A program made the position numbers and the translations under genes. The notes beneath the pieces were generated by a model. That model was not told where the DNA came from, did no database searches, and saw only the letters and a program-made list of their open reading frames with translations. A DNA stretch of 20,510 nt from a virus: positions 1 through 20,510 of IMG/VR virus record IMGVR_UViG_3300007276_000403, one strand, 5' to 3'. Shown here piece after piece: positions 1 to 20,509 of the stretch. Position 1 is the stretch's first letter; the number at the start of each line of letters is the position of its first letter.

Positions 1-3000
1 AACTTCATTTGAGGTTTAGTGTCTACACCACCAAAGTCTGTGAGACCGTCTTGCTCTACTGAAATACCCAATGCTGTTGTTGCCGGTAAGGCTTCATTAG
101 TTCCTATACTTAACAAGTCAGGTGTAACGTTTGCACCAATAAGCAATGCTCTACTTGTTGATAAGGCACTATCTCCACCTGTGGTTACATCTGCAACATG
201 ACGCATTTTTACGTTTGCCATGTCTACTGTTGAAGCACCGTAACTTACTCTATCTAATGTTACGTTGCTTAATGTTTCTGGTAAATCATACTGGTTGTAT
301 GTAGCTTGAGCAAAATCAAATGTAAGTGCATTTGTTGAAGTGTCACCTGTCATTACCGTGCCAATATTTTGTGTGCTACTATATGCACCAGGAATTAATA
401 TAACTGCACCAGCAATATTCTGTAATAAATTTTCACTTAGTGTAACAGTATTACCGCTTATACCAGTGATATGTCCAGTAACACTTGTTAGATAAGTTGA
501 GCTATTAGTTGTTACATCAAATATACGCCAACCTGATAAGTTAGCAAGACCCGCCCATGAAATACCGCCAAGTGTTGTGCCTGCATTTGTTAATGCATTT
601 TCTAAACTGCTGTCACCTGCAAGATATCCTGTGCTTGTAAATGCACCACCGGCAGTTTCTACACCTATGTATATACCTGATCCAGATGCAAGTCCTAAAC
701 ATGTTACTGTATTTGATCCTGCTGTGCCGTAAAATACTGTTAATATACGTGGAATATCTGCTGTTGTTACTGTAGCAGTATGGAAATCAAAATCCGCTAT
801 ACTATAACCTGATGTGTCTGCATCAAATATTCTCGAATCTACAGTAGCAATGGTTTTGTCTAATTCAATACCGTCTGTTTGGCCTTTAAGTTGTAAAGGT
901 TGAGCACTAGCACTACTGATATGGTCTGTTTGTAATACTCCTGTGCTGGCATTAAAAGATAACTTTGAACTGCTTACTTTTACGCCACTTAAACTACCAC
1001 TAGTTGCTGAAGCAAATGTTGGATAAATTGTTGCGTTTGTTGAAGTATCATCTGTAATTGATATTGAGCCTGCTGTGGTATCAGCTGGTGTAAATGTAAA
1101 TACACCACTACTGTTATCATATGCTAATGCACCTCCACCACTTGCTGAAGTAGTTGTTGTGCTAATATCAGTTAATGCAATACCAGGAACACTTGGTGTA
1201 AATGTAAATACACCTGTTGAATTATTGTATGCTAATGCGCCACCGCCACTTGCTGAAGCATTTGTTGTGCTAACTGCCGCTCTACTTCTTGCATCAGTGT
1301 AGTATAAGTTTGTATCTTCTGAAATGTCTGCTGTATCTAATACAACTACACCTGTTGCACCATTAACACTTGTGACTGCACCTGTGCCTATTACTGGTGG
1401 AGTAAATGTGAATACACCACTAGTATTATCATATGCTAATGCGCCTGATCCACTAGCACTTGCTGTTGTAATACTTAAATCTGTTAAAGCAATACCCGGA
1501 ACTGCTGGAGCAAAGGTAAACACACCACTACTGTTATCATATGCCAAACTTCCGCCACCACTAGCACTTGCTGTAGTTGTGCTTAATAATCCTCTTACTT
1601 CTGCATCAGTTTGAATATCAGCTGGAGTAAATGTAAATACACCTGTTCCGCTATTATATGCTAAAGCACCTCCACTACTTGCACTTGCTGGAGTGCCAAC
1701 ACTAATGTTGCCTCTAGCCCTTGCATCTGTAAAGTATAAATTTGTTCCTTCACTTAAATCACTAGTTGACTTAGCAGTAAAGCCTGCGTCTACTCTAGCA
1801 TCTGCTCTTGCATCTGTGTAGTATAAGTTAGTGCCTTCTGTTAAGTTACTTGTTGTTTTTGTTCCTAATCTTGTATCAAAACGTGCATCAGTATAATACA
1901 AGTTTGTGCCTTCTGTGAGCTCACTAGTGCTTGTTGGAACATCTGCAGGTGTATGTGTAAACACACCTGTTGAATTGTTGTATGCTAAACTGCCGTCACC
2001 ACTTGCTGTTGCTGATGTTACACTTACTAATCCTCTAGTTTGTGAAGTTGTTAGTATGTCTTGGTAAACATTGTCACCATTCATAAATGTCCATGTTTCT
2101 GATGGTTCATTCCATACTATTTTAGCATCATGTGTGCTTTGTGGTCTGTTTGAAATTATTTCTACTGTAGCATCTGTTGTTGCATTTGCATTTAGTGTAA
2201 TCTTTTGGTCTGTTACATATAAGTCTGTAACGTTTTGATAATTGATATTACCGGTTGCATCAATATTGCCAGTCACTGATAAATTGCCACCTACTGAAAG
2301 TGGAACTGTTGCAATGTGTGAAATAACTTGTGCGTTGGTTAGTGTTTGTGGCATGTTAGTCAATTGACTACCATCACCTAAAATGTATGCACCGCTTACG
2401 TTTGCAGTTGTTGTAATATTTCCAGTTGCATTGGTCATACCGCCTGTGTAATCGGCTATATCTGTATCTGTTCTAGCACTTGTATAATAAAGGTTAGTGC
2501 CTTCACTTAAATCACTAGTGCTTTTGGCTCCAAATGCACTATCAAATCTTGCTTGAGTGTAATATAAATTTGTGTTTTCAGCAATGTCATTTGTTTCTAA
2601 TACTACTGCACCTGTTTGAGTATTAACACTTGTAACTGCATCAGGCTGATTAGGTAAGTTTGTTAATAAACTACCATCACCTATAAACTTGCCGCTTGTT
2701 GAAGTAATATTACCAGAAACAGTTAATGTGCTTGGTGCTACATTTTGAAAGTTTACTACTGATGCATAATACTTACTACCATCATAAGTTACAGTTATAA
2801 TATCTATACCAGTTGATGCAGTTCCGCTTAATGTGGTATAGTCATCGACAAATTCCCAACTTGTCCAATTGGAAGGAGTTGTAGTTAAGTCTAATGAATG
2901 TCCACCAATTGCATCTTGAGTTAGAATAATAGTTGCTGAACCACCCGTGCTTATGCTGGATAATGTTATACCAGTTATGTCGCCTGTTAGTGTTGCTTTA

Positions 3001-3825: not shown

Positions 3826-3914
3826 GTTGGTATTCTCCTATTGGAAATAACCTATACGGTATTCCCTATAGGCTTATATGTTTTGTATGTTTGTATTTAT
3901 CGGATTATATGCAA
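3826..3914 (-). promoter_or_regulatory. Fibre-region leader with candidate sigma70 promoter and hairpin
   Basis: This is the largest gap in the tail cluster. On the minus strand a TATAAT (3904-3909) lies 17 bases downstream of ATGTCA (3927-3932, inside the end of the adhesin gene; 4 of 6 matches to TTGACA). Transcription would start near 3897, giving a leader of about 70 bases before the ATG at 3825. The leader holds an inverted repeat, CCTATA and TATAGG, around a 10-base loop (3851-3872). It also holds an imperfect direct repeat of the ribosome-site segment: CCTATAGGGAATACC resembles CCAATAGGAGAATACC just downstream. This may give the two fibre genes their own transcript. The -35 match is weak, so the promoter is only a candidate. 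Confidence 0.35.
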
Positions 3915-5687
3915 TTACGAAGTAAATGACATGTATTCTGTAGGATAATACACAATGATTATTCCTTCACCGCCGTTTGTTCCATATTCATTTGAAAGGA
4001 AAGGTCCGCCGGAACCACCACCACCTCTTAATCCGTGATATGTGTAACTTGCGTTAGCAGTGTTAGTAACTCTAGCCGCTGGTTCTACACTAAAACTTGT
4101 GTTTGCATTTCCTGTGCTATTTAATTGTGATCCACCTGCACCGTTAACTAATGTTAATCCTTCGTCATAACTAAGATTACCACTAGTGGATCTGCTACCA
4201 CCACCAGTAGGCGCACTTGCACCACCACCACCTAAATTCCAATATGTAACACTACCGCCACCTGCTCTTACATTGCCTGCTTGTGGTAAAGGTTGTGGCA
4301 CTTTAACACCACTAGTATCATGTAATCTATTCCATGATCCAGGTTGACCAAAAGGCTTTTGATAGAAAGGCGCTTTTTCACCTATTGTTGCTGTTTCAAA
4401 TACTGTTGTGTTACCTGCAACACCACCTTGACTACCATGCCAATTTTTTGCTACACCATTACCACTTGCACCAATTCTACTACTAGTTGATGTTACATTA
4501 CCTGGTGCTTTTGCAATGTATATTTCACTACTTGCACCAACATTTGTAATGTTTGCTTGGCTTAATCCTGCATTACCAAATCCTGCACTAAGATATCCTG
4601 CATTCATTAATGATGTTGATAAATCAAATGTTATATTAACATTTGTTGCACCACTACCACCCAAAGGTGTAGTCCAATCAACGTTTGCATTTGCCTTAAA
4701 TCCACCTAGACCTATATCAAAATTAACACTAGGGAACGTAAAGTTACTACTTGTTGAACTGTTTAAATCACTTGCTCTTAAGAAACTTGGAGGAGCAACA
4801 CCACCATGTGCTGTTAGTGTGCTTTGTGTTTCATGAAATCCAAATACTGTATTACCACCCATTGGTTTGTTTGTTGAGGAAGGTGTTGGGATAGCACTAT
4901 AATTGGCATTTGACATACCGCCTTGGAAAGAATGTCTACCACCATCTCCAAGTGTTATTGAAATATTACCTGCTGAATATACATTTGCTGGTGCTTTGTA
5001 ATAAATTACATCACCGGAACCACCACCACCTCCACTCGCTACAATGTTACCAAAAGATAAGTCTGTGCCGAATCTGTTTGGACCACCTGCGCCACCGCCT
5101 CCTACAACGATAGCAGTAACGTAATTGAATGGATCTGCAGTATCTCCTACACTAGTAACTTGTAAATCATCCCATACTTTTGCACTTGAAAATGTGCTGT
5201 TTTCAATAGTTTCATAACTATCGAATATATGAACTGTATGGTCATTTAATGTGCTGGCATTACTACTGTTTGCAGTAAAAGTATTAGCTGGTGCTAACGT
5301 TATATTACCACCTGTTGCTAATGTTGAATTGCCGTTTGGATTTATAATTGATAAATTTATGTCTGTTGAAGTATTTGCATAATTGGCCCAAACGTTCATG
5401 TCATAAGTTAGACTGGCATCGCCATTACCATCAAAAGTAAAACTACCTGACACAACACCATTAGCAAACATACTGTTACTGGCATTGTTTAATGTGTAGT
5501 TCACTGTAGCATTAGGAATATTACTAGAAATACCATACACAACTTTGTTTTTATATCCAGTGCCATATGTTGCGGCACTATCATGATTACTAATTGTTGG
5601 TGTTATTGTAATTGAACGCACAAAGGCAGTTCCGGCTCCACCTAAGTGGTCCTTATATAATCCTATTTTGCTACTTCCTAAAGGCAT
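3915..5687 (-). CDS. Glycine-rich tail adhesin (receptor-binding protein candidate)
   Basis: The 590-residue protein starts at 5687 behind a strong ribosome site (TAGGAGATAAG), which also contains the stop codon of the 50-residue gene upstream. Residues about 1-180 look like a beta-sandwich stalk rich in Thr, Asn and Ser. From 190 on, glycine-rich strands recur: VVGGGGAGG (195-202), ASGGGGGSGD (218-226), LGGGGASAPTGGG, and finally GLRGGGGSGG with GGEGIIIVYYP at the C-terminus. This alternation of poly-glycine runs with short variable loops is the pattern of phage adhesins with a glycine-rich domain, of which phage S16 gp38 (a polyglycine type II sandwich) is the known example. By analogy the loops between the glycine runs would contact the host surface. 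Family membership is inferred from pattern, not from alignment. Neighbouring genes are also fibre-related. Confidence 0.7.
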   Translation of the reverse strand: MPLGSSKIGLYKDHLGGAGTAFVRSITITPTISNHDSAATYGTGYKNKVVYGISSNIPNATVNYTLNNASNSMFANGVVSGSFTFDGNGDASLTYDMNVWANYANTSTDINLSIINPNGNSTLATGGNITLAPANTFTANSSNASTLNDHTVHIFDSYETIENSTFSSAKVWDDLQVTSVGDTADPFNYVTAIVVGGGGAGGPNRFGTDLSFGNIVASGGGGGSGDVIYYKAPANVYSAGNISITLGDGGRHSFQGGMSNANYSAIPTPSSTNKPMGGNTVFGFHETQSTLTAHGGVAPPSFLRASDLNSSTSSNFTFPSVNFDIGLGGFKANANVDWTTPLGGSGATNVNITFDLSTSLMNAGYLSAGFGNAGLSQANITNVGASSEIYIAKAPGNVTSTSSRIGASGNGVAKNWHGSQGGVAGNTTVFETATIGEKAPFYQKPFGQPGSWNRLHDTSGVKVPQPLPQAGNVRAGGGSVTYWNLGGGGASAPTGGGSRSTSGNLSYDEGLTLVNGAGGSQLNSTGNANTSFSVEPAARVTNTANASYTYHGLRGGGGSGGPFLSNEYGTNGGEGIIIVYYPTEYMSFTS

Positions 5688-9092: not shown

Positions 9093-9548
9093 CTACACAC
9101 CCTCATATATATAATTTGTTTCTATAGGTCGCCAACCTCGTTTTTCTAAATCAAAGTCTGGCGTTATCTCCATGTTTGTGAGTGTAAAACCTTCTATAAT
9201 TTGTTCTTCTACTAGAGTTTTACCTATTTTCACATATTCTTTTAGTAATCTATAACCCAATGATGACATTCTGTGTTCTGGTTCTACCCACCACGCAACT
9301 TCTTTCATTGTTTTTATTTCTGGTAACCATGCATCTGTTTGTATTTGTGCTATCAACATGCTTACTACTTCGTTGTTCTTTTCACCTAACAGTATGCAAC
9401 CTTCTTTTCCAAAACTATCCAATAATCTTCTAATATACATATCATTGTATTCTGGATTGCGTAAAGCACTATAAGGTGAACTGTTGGCAAAGTTAATCAT
9501 CATTGCCATTATGCTGTCATAGTCTTGTATGGTTGCTCGTCTAATCAT
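9093..9548 (-). CDS. GNAT-family N-acetyltransferase in the tail-tip module
   Basis: The 151-residue protein begins MIRRATIQDYDSIMAMM, the usual first strand and helix of a GNAT fold. It continues with a central strand pair (CILLGEKNNEVVSMLIA, 51-67), the beta4 strand EVAWWVEPEHR (83-93), and an acetyl-CoA loop with R93, S95-S96 and G98 in place of the common Q/RxxGxG/A. The end, DFDLEKRGWRPIETNYI, matches the usual GNAT C-terminal strand. The gene overlaps the preceding tail gene by one base (TAATG) and abuts the J-like gene, so it belongs to the tail operon. I recall acetyltransferase-like genes at this position in other marine phages, where lambda has K (peptidase) and I. The substrate is unknown; virion or host protein modification are both possible. 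Confidence 0.8.
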   Translation of the reverse strand: MIRRATIQDYDSIMAMMINFANSSPYSALRNPEYNDMYIRRLLDSFGKEGCILLGEKNNEVVSMLIAQIQTDAWLPEIKTMKEVAWWVEPEHRMSSLGYRLLKEYVKIGKTLVEEQIIEGFTLTNMEITPDFDLEKRGWRPIETNYIYEGV

Positions 9549-17503: not shown

Positions 17504-19168
17504 TTATAAACTGTTGCTGGTAGTTGACTGTGTCAATAACTGCTCTAGTCGATCGCGAAGTTTGTCACGCAAATCTGTGTTAGGAGTATCTACTCCCATT
17601 AATTCTTCATACTCGTCATGTGTGGTGAACGGCATATACTTAACAGTGCCGTCGTCTGCTGTGTGCTCATGAGATCCACTTCCACCCATTGCTTCTGCAA
17701 CGGCTTCTGCTTGTTCTTGAGTATTGTATAGTTCTAAATCTGGTGCTTGTTGACCATATCCTAATCTATCGGATAAGTCCATCAGCATGTTTAATTCTTT
17801 TAGTTCGTGCTCCATTGCACGTTGATTGTATTGTCTGTTATAACTAATCTCTACTGTATTAGCTTCTCCAGTCCAATCATGATAGATATCAAATGCACGT
17901 TTCTCTGCGTTTTCCATTTGAACTGCTTTCTTTCTCACAAATGCTTGTAGTTTACTGTCTAATGTTTCTACCATTGCCGCACTACTTGATGCTTTAATTA
18001 AGTCATCACTTCTAATCATGCATGTTTCTAGCATTTTATCTATTTTGTTGTCTATTAGGTCTCTGATCTCTGTGATTGGATCAGTGTTTGGTTGTCTGAA
18101 TTCGTATGTGAAGTTTTGTTCACCCTGTAAGCCACTGTTTACTCTAATTACACTACCTGCTTCAGCACCTATTTCACCGTTGTTTAATTCGTCTGTGGCT
18201 TCATCTACTACTAATGTAGGATGTATGCTGTAGTTTACACTAGCATATATTTCCGAATTCAAGTTGTATATCTCTCTTTGTATAATAGAGGCATCTAATA
18301 AAGGACTTGAACCAACGCCAGGGAATGTAGGTATACCTTGATAAATTGGAAACACCGGAATGTATCCTAATTCATTTGGTTGCACTACTCTAAATACACC
18401 TTCGTCTTGTTGAAATACATCTTCTATTTCAGGTGGTAAGTAATCTTCATCTTCTGAATAAAACACAGTTTCAATTGTGTCTTGCGTAAAGTATCTGTAA
18501 ACAACTTGGTTTTCATCTTCTGCTATTTTAATTACTAGTTTTCTCAACACTTGGTCGCCATTCATGTCATAACCAAATTCCCAGTTCATAACATCTAATG
18601 GCTTATATATGTTAAAACGTGGAACTTCTGATCCACTTGGCTTTACTACACTTAACCAGCTCACACCAAATACACTTACTAGTGTGTCTACTTGACTGAA
18701 GAACTCTGGCAAACTGTTGCCTTCTCCATCACAGTTTTGTGCAAATGAATCCATAACAAACGTTTCTGGTAACATTCTATGTGCTGGGTTTTTAAATAGG
18801 ATTGCGTTGTATTCGTTAACGATTAACTTAACATAGTTGTAGAAACTTACGTTGTTAATCTTTTCATTGTAGAAACTGCCGCCTGCATCATTGCCACTTT
18901 TTGCATCAGCTCTATCAAAGCCTACATTATTGTTTACCCTGGCTTTGTATTTGCCAGTAGTGTTGCCAAACTCATCACGAGTATAAGTGTTTATTACTTC
19001 ACTGGCTGTTTGTTGGTCAGAATCAAACATCTTAAGGTATCTACCTTGTTTGTATTCCTCGGATCCCACAAAACTACGATAGGATAGATCCCATGTGTCA
19101 TGATATCGTTCGTATAAGTTGTGGACGCCGGTGATAAACTCACTGTATTCGGATAGGTTATCGCTCAT
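17504..19168 (-). CDS. Portal protein
   Basis: I start it at ATG 19168 (MSDNLSEYSEF), with GGGA about 7 bases upstream. A TTG at 19201 would add 11 residues that include the GC-rich palindrome and is less likely. The 554-residue product has portal features: a helical N-terminus (HNLYERYHDTWDLSYRSF), a strand-rich wing, VFPIYQGIPTFPGVGSSPLL followed by DASIIQREIYNLNSEIY (clip and stem region, about 280-320), and HPTLVVDEATD. Long helices near the C-terminus (LIDNKIDKMLETCM; QAFVRKKAVQMENAEKRAF) complete it. It forms the ring at the capsid vertex through which DNA enters and leaves. It ends with a TAA TAA double stop shortly before the scaffold gene. Confidence 0.88.
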   Translation of the reverse strand: MSDNLSEYSEFITGVHNLYERYHDTWDLSYRSFVGSEEYKQGRYLKMFDSDQQTASEVINTYTRDEFGNTTGKYKARVNNNVGFDRADAKSGNDAGGSFYNEKINNVSFYNYVKLIVNEYNAILFKNPAHRMLPETFVMDSFAQNCDGEGNSLPEFFSQVDTLVSVFGVSWLSVVKPSGSEVPRFNIYKPLDVMNWEFGYDMNGDQVLRKLVIKIAEDENQVVYRYFTQDTIETVFYSEDEDYLPPEIEDVFQQDEGVFRVVQPNELGYIPVFPIYQGIPTFPGVGSSPLLDASIIQREIYNLNSEIYASVNYSIHPTLVVDEATDELNNGEIGAEAGSVIRVNSGLQGEQNFTYEFRQPNTDPITEIRDLIDNKIDKMLETCMIRSDDLIKASSSAAMVETLDSKLQAFVRKKAVQMENAEKRAFDIYHDWTGEANTVEISYNRQYNQRAMEHELKELNMLMDLSDRLGYGQQAPDLELYNTQEQAEAVAEAMGGSGSHEHTADDGTVKYMPFTTHDEYEELMGVDTPNTDLRDKLRDRLEQLLTQSTTSNSL

Positions 19169-19176
19169 ATTTTGTT

Positions 19177-19184
19177 CCCGCGGG
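19177..19184. repeat. GC-only palindrome CCCGCGGG in the portal leader
   Basis: An uninterrupted 8-base palindrome of only G and C stands 9 bases before the portal ATG in very AT-rich surroundings. It includes part of the ribosome site (GGGA). It may affect portal translation or simply provide the ribosome site. Confidence 0.4.
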
Positions 19185-19232
19185 GTAAAACGTTCTTTCA
19201 AAGTTTTTGTTGTATACTGATGTATTTATGCA

Positions 19233-19288: not shown

Positions 19289-19316
19289 TTGACATTGAGC
19301 TGTAAAGAAGTATAAT
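19289..19316 (+). promoter_or_regulatory. Perfect sigma70 promoter on the plus strand
   Basis: TTGACA (19289-19294) and TATAAT (19311-19316) match both consensus boxes exactly with a 16-base spacer. An A/T-rich stretch precedes the -35. Transcription would start near 19322-19324, reading away from the portal gene and towards the terminase end of the gap. It is the only strong plus-strand signal seen in the window. Confidence 0.8.
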
Positions 19317-19321
19317 TAACT

Positions 19322-19488
19322 ACTTGTAACAAAGGAAACACTAATTTTTAATTAAGGAGAATTCCTGGATTAGAATACAATGTTTATTGTTTCTTTATTA
19401 CACACGGGTGTGTGTAGTGTGTTGCAATTTATGTAGGCGTCTTACTTAATAAAACATTGTGTGTATTGTTAGTAAGGCGCTTTTTTTT
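19322..19488 (+). ncRNA. Candidate small structured RNA, about 165 nt
   Basis: The stretch is bounded by a perfect promoter and a strong terminator on the plus strand, against the direction of every protein gene. Between them are three short hairpins, each with a four-base loop: AGGA-GAAT-TCCT (19355-19366), ACAAT-GTTT-ATTGT (19377-19390) and TACACAC-GGGT-GTGTGTA (19399-19416). A strong ribosome-site-like TAAGGAG (19353-19359) has no ATG, GTG or TTG at proper distance. The only ATG (19380) is 20 bases away and gives 18 residues. A noncoding RNA is therefore the best reading. It resembles no RNA family I know. Possible roles, all speculative: a regulator of host or phage messages, a packaging-related RNA, or a translation decoy through the exposed TAAGGAG. 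Confidence 0.6.
19437..19488 (+). terminator. Rho-independent terminator of the plus-strand RNA
   Basis: GCGTCTTACT (19437-19446) pairs with AGTAAGGCGC (19471-19480) over 10 positions with one G-T pair. The loop is 24 bases, partly able to pair further (AATA with TATT). Eight T residues follow at 19481-19488. On the minus strand no T tract follows, so it acts in one direction only. Confidence 0.8.
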
Positions 19489-19493
19489 GACTC

Positions 19494-19530
19494 AAAAAGA
19501 AACCCCACAATGGCCACACTATGAGGTTCC
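19494..19530 (-). terminator. Rho-independent terminator of the terminase transcript
   Basis: On the minus strand GGAACCTCATAG (19530-19519) pairs with TTGTGGGGTTTC (19510-19499) over 12 positions, including a few G-T pairs, around the loop TGTGGCCA. TTTTT (19498-19494) follows. It lies about 50 bases after the stop of the 59-residue gene and faces the plus-strand terminator, five bases away. Confidence 0.75.
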
Positions 19531-19581
19531 TAGTAACTTAAGACATACCACACACTGAACACTATAAGTCACTATGTGTAT

Positions 19582-19761
19582 TTATCGTATGTATTCTTCG
19601 TGTTTGAATGCACCTATTCTGCCTGCTTCATAACGGGCATATCCATCTAATTCTTTGGCAGAGCTCATTGTCCATGTTTTGTTTACTGTTTTAATTCGGT
19701 CTTTCTTTTGATATGTGCTACTCATATCATACCAATAGAATGTGTATGTTTTTGTTATCAT
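19582..19761 (-). CDS. Small hypothetical protein, 59 residues, coupled to the gene before it
   Basis: The ATG at 19761 overlaps the TGA of the upstream gene as ATGA, the usual sign of coupled translation. The frame ends at TAA 19582. The product begins MITKTYTFYWYDMSSTYQKK and ends GRIGAFKHEEYIR. It is basic and rich in Tyr and Lys, with an amphipathic segment MSSAKELDGYARYEAGR, and has no signal or membrane segment. I do not recognise a family. It is the last gene of the terminase transcript, which ends at the terminator near 19494. Confidence 0.7.
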   Translation of the reverse strand: MITKTYTFYWYDMSSTYQKKDRIKTVNKTWTMSSAKELDGYARYEAGRIGAFKHEEYIR

Positions 19762-20036
19762 GACTTATCTATTTCTTGTTCGTTAACATGATCTATATAG
19801 ACACCGTTTACTTTAGTTTTAAACTTGGGTTTAACTTTGTTTTTACCCCAGTCTATTTTATCGAAATTGTCTTTGTATGCTTGTTCATCACCGATACGTC
19901 TAGCACTTCCTTTGCCACCATGAGTAGCACCAAAGCCTTTACCACTAATGCCATTACTAATGTCCTTAGCACGTTTTAGTTCTGGTGAAGCATCTACTAT
20001 TGCTTTTGCTTGTTTCCTTATGTTGTCATCACTCAT
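19758..20036 (-). CDS. Small conserved-type phage protein after terminase, 92 residues
   Basis: The ATG at 20036 shares one base with the TAA of the terminase gene. The protein has a helical N-terminus (DNIRKQAKAIVDASPELKRA), then GFGATHGGKGSARRIGDEQA followed by YKDNFDKIDWGK. The 'GGKGS.R...D...Y..N.D.I.WGK' pattern resembles small proteins of unknown function that I recall in many tailed-phage genomes (HGGKGS..R...........N.D.IFGK). The C-terminal 30 residues are basic, then acidic. Location beside terminase suggests a packaging link, but no function is established. Confidence 0.65.
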   Translation of the reverse strand: MSDDNIRKQAKAIVDASPELKRAKDISNGISGKGFGATHGGKGSARRIGDEQAYKDNFDKIDWGKNKVKPKFKTKVNGVYIDHVNEQEIDKS

Positions 20037-20509
20037 TATAAACTTCTCCTGCTATGTCCATAGCCTTTACCTAAGTCACGTTTAATGCCAAAGTTTTGAT
20101 ACACTAAGTATCCTAAAGCATCAGCGGCATGGTCTAACACATTGTCTTTGTCTGGTATTCTAGTTCCTTCTTTGTAACTCATTTTGATTAACATCTCTCT
20201 TATCTTTGCACATTTAGGATCAATAAGCAAGTTGCGTTCACCATGTGCATTACATAACAAACTATTTACTGCATTTATTCTATCTAATACTGGAGGATTG
20301 GTTTTGCCCACAACTAACTTGAATCCATTGTTTGCCAATATGATATGGTCACTCTGATTACTGTTAGTTGACTTGTGACTACCACTTGCATCTGGATAAC
20401 ATATATAGTTTTTATTTGGGTAACGTCTTTTAATTTCTTGTATCATTTCATATGTGTTACTTTGATATATTTCAATAAAGTCAACCACGTATAGTTTATT
20501 ACCGTTCAT
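20036..20509 (-). CDS. terL: Terminase large subunit, C-terminal nuclease part (5' end outside the window)
   Basis: The frame reaches the right edge; the Met at 20509 is probably internal, because the ATPase half is missing. The 157 visible residues are the RNase H-like nuclease domain: a first strand with KLYVVDFIEIYQSN (candidate acidic residue D10), then IKRRYPNKNYICYPDASGSH (D40), SDHIILANNGFKLVVGKTNP, RINAVNSLLCNAHGERNLLI, and YKEGTRIPDKDNVLDHAADA (D126, D130) followed by LGYLVY. These spaced acidic residues bind the metal ions used to cut concatemeric DNA during headful or cohesive-end packaging. The protein drives DNA into the procapsid through the portal. The basic tail GKGYGHSRRSL ends the protein. 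Confidence 0.9.
   Translation of the reverse strand: MNGNKLYVVDFIEIYQSNTYEMIQEIKRRYPNKNYICYPDASGSHKSTNSNQSDHIILANNGFKLVVGKTNPPVLDRINAVNSLLCNAHGERNLLIDPKCAKIREMLIKMSYKEGTRIPDKDNVLDHAADALGYLVYQNFGIKRDLGKGYGHSRRSL

Follow-up and report, generated by a model that had tools for sequence, protein, structure and literature searches.

Several kinds of phage RNA and phage cassette frame the locus described here. The pRNA of phi29 is a short, structured phage RNA near the packaging genes. Type III toxin-antitoxin RNAs and the abiF RNA are tied to phage-host conflict, while phage morons are independent accessory cassettes with their own promoter and terminator. Phages are also known to encode autonomous small RNAs, among them PreS of lambda and VpdS of VP882 (review PMC12197685).

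An uncultured virus of bacteria, IMG/VR record IMGVR_UViG_3300007276_000403, carries a compact noncoding unit at positions 19289-19488 (+) of the window, the whole 20,510 nt (20.5 kb) analysed, between the genes for the terminase large subunit (terL) and the portal protein. The initial annotation described it as a structured small RNA unit, divergent and stand-alone, and its promoter, fold, terminator and compensatory changes support that description. Judged from sequence comparison, a conserved, structured, autonomous RNA gene very probably exists here.

Promoter, fold and terminator of the RNA unit

The unit and its flanks comprise the following features (related IMG/VR contigs carry L numbers).

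17504-19201, minus strand: portal protein gene (phrog_145), flank
19223-19229, minus strand: ATAAATA late-promoter-like motif, upstream of portal
19289-19294, plus strand: -35 box TTGACA, preceded by GG as in most homologues
19311-19316, plus strand: -10 box TATAAT, 16-nt spacer from the -35 box
19323-19488, plus strand: predicted RNA, about 166 nt, its start inferred from the -10 box
19326-19330, plus strand: P1 5' strand GUAAC, partner 19421-19425 (GUAGC/GCUAC in L004 and L296)
19335-19340, plus strand: P2 5' strand GAAACA, partner 19388-19393 (different sequence in L003/L029, L004 and L296)
19346-19375, plus strand: P2 inner hairpin, conserved GGA..UUCCUG segment
19377-19386, plus strand: ACAAUGUUUA, unpaired and near-invariant, candidate seed or tertiary contact
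19388-19393, plus strand: P2 3' strand UGUUUC
19400-19415, plus strand: P3 hairpin ACACAC[GGGU]GUGUGU, all six pairs covarying, loop almost invariant
19421-19425, plus strand: P1 3' strand GUUGC
19437-19480, plus strand: P4 stem GCGUCUUACU/AGUAAGGCGC, internal loop AAACAUUGUGUGUAUU
19481-19488, plus strand: T8 tract, forming the intrinsic terminator together with P4
19498-19531, minus strand: opposing terminator, end of the terL operon
20036-20509, minus strand: terminase large subunit, C-terminal part, flank

The sigma-70-type promoter, TTGACA-16-TATAAT, matches the consensus at 12 of 12 positions and tops a 10-kb scan by two matches. As the initial annotation claimed, the site is perfect; it is the only such site on either strand of the window, with about 0.03 expected from dinucleotide frequencies, and the consensus promoter is kept in homologues. 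At the other end, a 10-bp stem with one G-U pair (GCGTCTTACT/AGTAAGGCGC, 19437-19446 / 19471-19480) stands directly before the T8 tract, bearing out the claim of a strong terminator. A simple terminator scan of the window did not pick it up because the loop is long. A T8 tail would suit small RNAs of the Hfq type.

The unit lies on the plus strand and every credible gene of the window on the minus strand, so its direction is indeed opposite to that of all the genes. GC skew in the window switches sign to positive across the unit, as expected of a plus-strand transcript. The minus-strand genes include an acetyltransferase-like gene (phrog_1249; 9093-9548) within the tail gene cluster. Also on the minus strand, 19498-19585 holds a late-type motif with a terminator about 75 nt further on and no ORF, and L003 and L005 are similar there; this is possibly another very short RNA.

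The absence of a credible ORF was likewise claimed at the outset and stands. The sole candidate ATG, within the conserved CAATGTTTA, opens peptides of unrelated lengths (12 codons in the window, 5 in L005, 21 in L023, about 31 in L003 and 5 in L029) and is missing from L114, leaving the unit with no ORF conserved across homologues. A tiny start-stop ORF after a GGAG motif (CTG or GTG start, early stop) was dropped, as its starts and lengths vary.

Folding of the 200 bases gives -53 kcal/mol, against -37.1 +/- 3.7 kcal/mol for shuffled sequences (z = -4.3), and none of 200 shuffles is as stable. The RNA is laid out as a three-way junction (P1, P2, P3) followed by the terminator stem P4. The initial annotation had drawn three consecutive tetraloop hairpins. 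Two of the tetraloops are present, GAAU in P2 and GGGU in P3, but both hairpins are branches of the junction rather than consecutive elements, and the third is not a tetraloop hairpin but a longer stem, interrupted by internal loops, that also serves as the terminator. Positions 19452-19460 in P4 are complementary to 19377-19385 in P2 over 9 nt. Pairing between the P2 loop ACAAUGUUU and the P4 loop AAACAUUGU exceeds that of shuffles in the window (p ~0.001) and in L023 (0.03) and is weak in L003, L029 and L114 (0.09-0.17); given this unevenness, the contact is not claimed as a conserved feature.

Homologues and covariation

The same layout recurs in at least seven further IMG/VR contigs, and all members with readable flanking genes have it between terL and portal, on the strand opposite to those genes. 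Portal relatives in IMG/VR yielded L003, L004 and L005, and the core pattern yielded L023 and L029. Scans with the promoter pattern alone listed mostly chance matches, with one new member, L114, among them. With a wider portal search the comparison took in 80 loci, and an RNA pattern applied to the whole collection irrespective of context matched six contigs, every one from this group.

A covariance model trained on six sequences (the window, L005, L023, L003, L029 and L114) scores them at 65-116 bits. An extra hairpin in L003, L029 and L114, around which a MAFFT alignment of the full RNA is unreliable, was removed from these three training sequences, which affects the training alone. Outside the training set, L004 reaches 25.2 bits (E 0.05); the score of L296 is 21.7 bits (E 0.33). 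The highest chance score across 770 kb of unrelated contigs is 21 bits, from which these two stand out little or not at all; the membership of both rests on their homologous place and strand and on their helix pattern. L004 forms the helices GUAGC/GCUAC, AAGAAC/GUUCUU and AUAGUGA[GGGU]UCACUAU, and L296 forms GUAGC/GCUAC, AAAGAGU/ACUCUUU and AUAACC[UAGGUU]GGUUAU.

A covariance search for compensatory changes, proposed in the initial annotation, finds them. In an alignment of eight sequences that was fitted to the model and so favours the structure, 82% of cells pair, against 70% in shuffles and 40-50% with a slid partner; 14 pairs are changed on both sides, against 7.6 in shuffles (0 of 500 reaching the observed count) and 4-8 in slid structures; and the covariation score is 0.327 against 0.144. 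The hand-read helices are independent of that fit, and RNAalifold, run unguided, predicts P1 and P3. In P3, every one of the six pairs varies on both sides while the GGGU loop is kept in seven of the eight sequences.

The refuting condition named in the initial annotation, loss of promoter, hairpins and terminator in related phages, turned out in the RNA's favour: related phages retain the promoter, the junction and the GGGU hairpin, while the terminator persists as a function but not at a fixed place. P4 with its T8 tract is present in the window and in L005, and L023, L029, L296, L289 and L004 have different hairpin terminators located downstream. Taken as a whole, the sequence comparison indicates that members keep shape, promoter and place even as their sequences diverge.

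Domains are also added and rearranged. In L023 and L029 the RNA runs past P4 into an extra hairpin domain and a separate terminator, and in L289, L296, L306 and L004 the terminal element is a long AAAGGG...CCCUUUUAUUUU hairpin. The junctions of L296 and L289 carry UUAACUUAA...GUGUGUAUU in P2, a motif located in P4 in the window. L296 holds two three-way-junction RNAs in tandem at 2700-2960 (-), with different stems and a shared UAGGUU loop; the window has a single copy. These modular additions were read by eye, and model R1 has no match to L289 or L306.

The initial annotation recognised no known RNA family, and this remains true against Rfam 15. At gathering and relaxed thresholds no family was found, the best sub-threshold match in the window having an E value of 1.9, and the homologues matched nothing but a tRNA. 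In L003, a tRNA-Asn(GTT) at 4704-4778 (-) lies directly upstream of the RNA promoter. DNA similarity searches with the gap and the RNA gave at most short chance matches in the phage and plasmid collections, and a scan of bacterial genomes found no portal relatives. Two Desulfobacteraceae stretches picked out of bacterial genomes by the RNA pattern were set aside, as the covariance model gives them no support. A scan for relatives through the small ORF beside terL produced no further RNA, and a literature search found no described RNA matching the unit. The RNA is a new family within a known kind, the small RNAs of phages, so far restricted to one uncultured phage group.

The terL-portal gap

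On its terL side the unit is flanked by the terL C-terminus and a 92-aa ORF, and on the other by portal. Two classes of promoter meet in this gap. In 60 of 61 relatives the motif ATAAATA, mostly as GATAAATA, precedes portal by no more than 220 bp on the same strand as the gene, and it never occurs inside the gene itself. The window has three such sites (19223-19229, 19579-19585 and 3894-3900), all minus-strand and intergenic. The motif resembles the T4 late promoter, which is unexpected given the tape-measure gene and the Pelagibacter-phage-like terL of this phage group. In the 700 bp upstream of portal, sigma-70-type promoters fall on the opposite strand in 18 cases and on the same strand in one across the 61 relatives, with none inside portal; those on the opposite strand drive small ORFs or noncoding units. 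As the structural genes carry the late-type motif, the RNA is likely to be an early product of host RNA polymerase and its housekeeping sigma factor, a timing read from promoter type. The contrast between the two promoter classes strengthens the suggestion of early synthesis made in the initial annotation.

The RNA itself comes and goes between relatives. L281, whose portal is 74% identical, has an ORF cassette in the gap in place of the RNA; most relatives at 42-47% portal identity lack the RNA; and in the nearest cultured phages portal directly adjoins terL. Together with the strand bias of the sigma-70-type promoters, the cassette in L281 and the ungapped arrangement in cultured phages make an accessory island of opposite-strand cassettes, with a promoter class unlike that of the structural genes, the best reading of the gap.

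Further units populate the gap in relatives. ORF cassettes on the opposite strand, whose GGTTGAC..GTATAAT promoters are near-identical, occur in L023 (4110-6082), L308, L283, L293 and L331, and the ORF cassettes of the gap include AAA+-like ATPases. A second conserved noncoding unit, AGTAAAAGTGGCTTGTCCTAACTTGC..ACCGATGTAAAACAACGGT with a terminator, lies near portal in either orientation in L004, L005, L029, L281, L282, L286 and L312-L368; it is absent from the window and was unmatched at the Rfam gathering threshold and in the phage collection. The third unit is short: ATGTGCAAGAAGACACGCAT with a T-run terminator behind it, located between portal and the GGCTTGTCC unit in L029, L289, L296 and L306.

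A broader proposal, offered tentatively, treats the gap as a possible RNA moron site. It would be a dedicated slot within the late gene cluster, transcribed by the host, into which modular small RNA genes (the junction, the GUGUGUAUU hairpin, a third hairpin domain and a separate GGCUUGUCC unit) are acquired and in which they duplicate, recombine and trade places with protein cassettes, serving in counter-defence or host control. If the gap is such a slot for RNA and protein cassettes under host polymerase, it is a place to seek host-takeover and counter-defence factors across the group.

Candidate functions and known systems

For the function of the RNA, a free-standing phage small RNA acting in trans on a host target through its fixed unpaired stretches has roughly an even chance of being right, the mechanism being inferred. 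Host RNA polymerase with the housekeeping sigma factor would transcribe the RNA as soon as infection begins, while the late-type promoters in front of the structural genes are still inactive. The junction would hold out the near-invariant unpaired ACAAAG, ACAAUGUUUA and the GGGU loop, and these exposed stretches might act in trans on a host mRNA, chaperone or defence component. The RNA would be a dispensable accessory trait within the island of opposite-strand cassettes. Target complementarity within the window amounts to short, scattered matches. In the predicted structure, extensive folding leaves few accessible seed bases, so a protein partner would fit as well as base pairing.

The main rival is an RNA that binds protein, as a decoy or in counter-defence, with the junction and GGGU hairpin occupying a host defence or regulatory protein or replacing an RNA antitoxin. 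The conservation of shape over sequence, with a fixed hairpin loop on a stem that turns over, suits such a role, as do the accessory location, the presence and absence among near relatives and the tandem junctions of L296, but the window has no toxin-like gene beside the RNA and no Rfam antitoxin family matches. This reading is possible, though doubtful.

Three further rivals are unlikely in view of the evidence against each. Hairpins acting at the level of DNA or transcript ends could keep the convergent terL operon apart from the opposite-strand island without the free RNA having any role, and the opposing terminators do stand side by side in a region between two operons. Such an insulator would need neither a conserved promoter nor a three-way junction nor a fixed GGGU loop, and the compensatory changes in P1-P3 fall outside the terminator stem, which makes it improbable. 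Marginally less probable is a packaging RNA that cooperates with the adjacent terminase and portal, like the pRNA of phi29-like phages. Its position between terL and portal in all members with both flanks visible speaks for such a role, but the promoter is not of the late type, the nearest cultured phages have terL directly adjoining portal, and the RNA is missing from most relatives at 42-47% portal identity and from the near relative L281, which argues against an essential packaging role. A cis-acting leader (riboswitch or attenuator) is the least probable of all: a structured RNA behind a promoter, with P2 and P4 loops complementary over 9 nt, is attenuator-like, but no plus-strand gene follows it before the opposite-strand terL operon in the window, in L005 or in L003, which already contradicts a leader in the window.

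Few phage small RNAs with comparative structural evidence have been described from uncultured aquatic lineages. The helices, fixed loop and candidate seed of this RNA provide a ready, testable model.

Like an autonomous phage small RNA, the unit has its own promoter, an intrinsic terminator, a conserved structure and no conserved ORF. It shares with lambda PreS and VpdS of VP882 that it is a noncoding RNA encoded in a phage genome. Unlike them, it lies in the terL-portal gap on the opposite strand, forms an elaborate covarying junction and comes from an uncultured phage, and it has no sequence relation to either. The RNA resembles phi29 pRNA in being short, structured and near packaging genes, but differs in not being universal among close relatives and in having no Rfam match. 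It is small and structured like the type III toxin-antitoxin RNAs and the abiF RNA; unlike the former, it has no adjacent toxin gene in the window, and neither it nor its homologues match such a family in Rfam. With its own promoter and terminator, its opposite strand, its variation between relatives and its seat inside the late gene cluster, the unit is built like a moron, but the cargo of morons in this comparison is a protein gene, and the cargo here is RNA.
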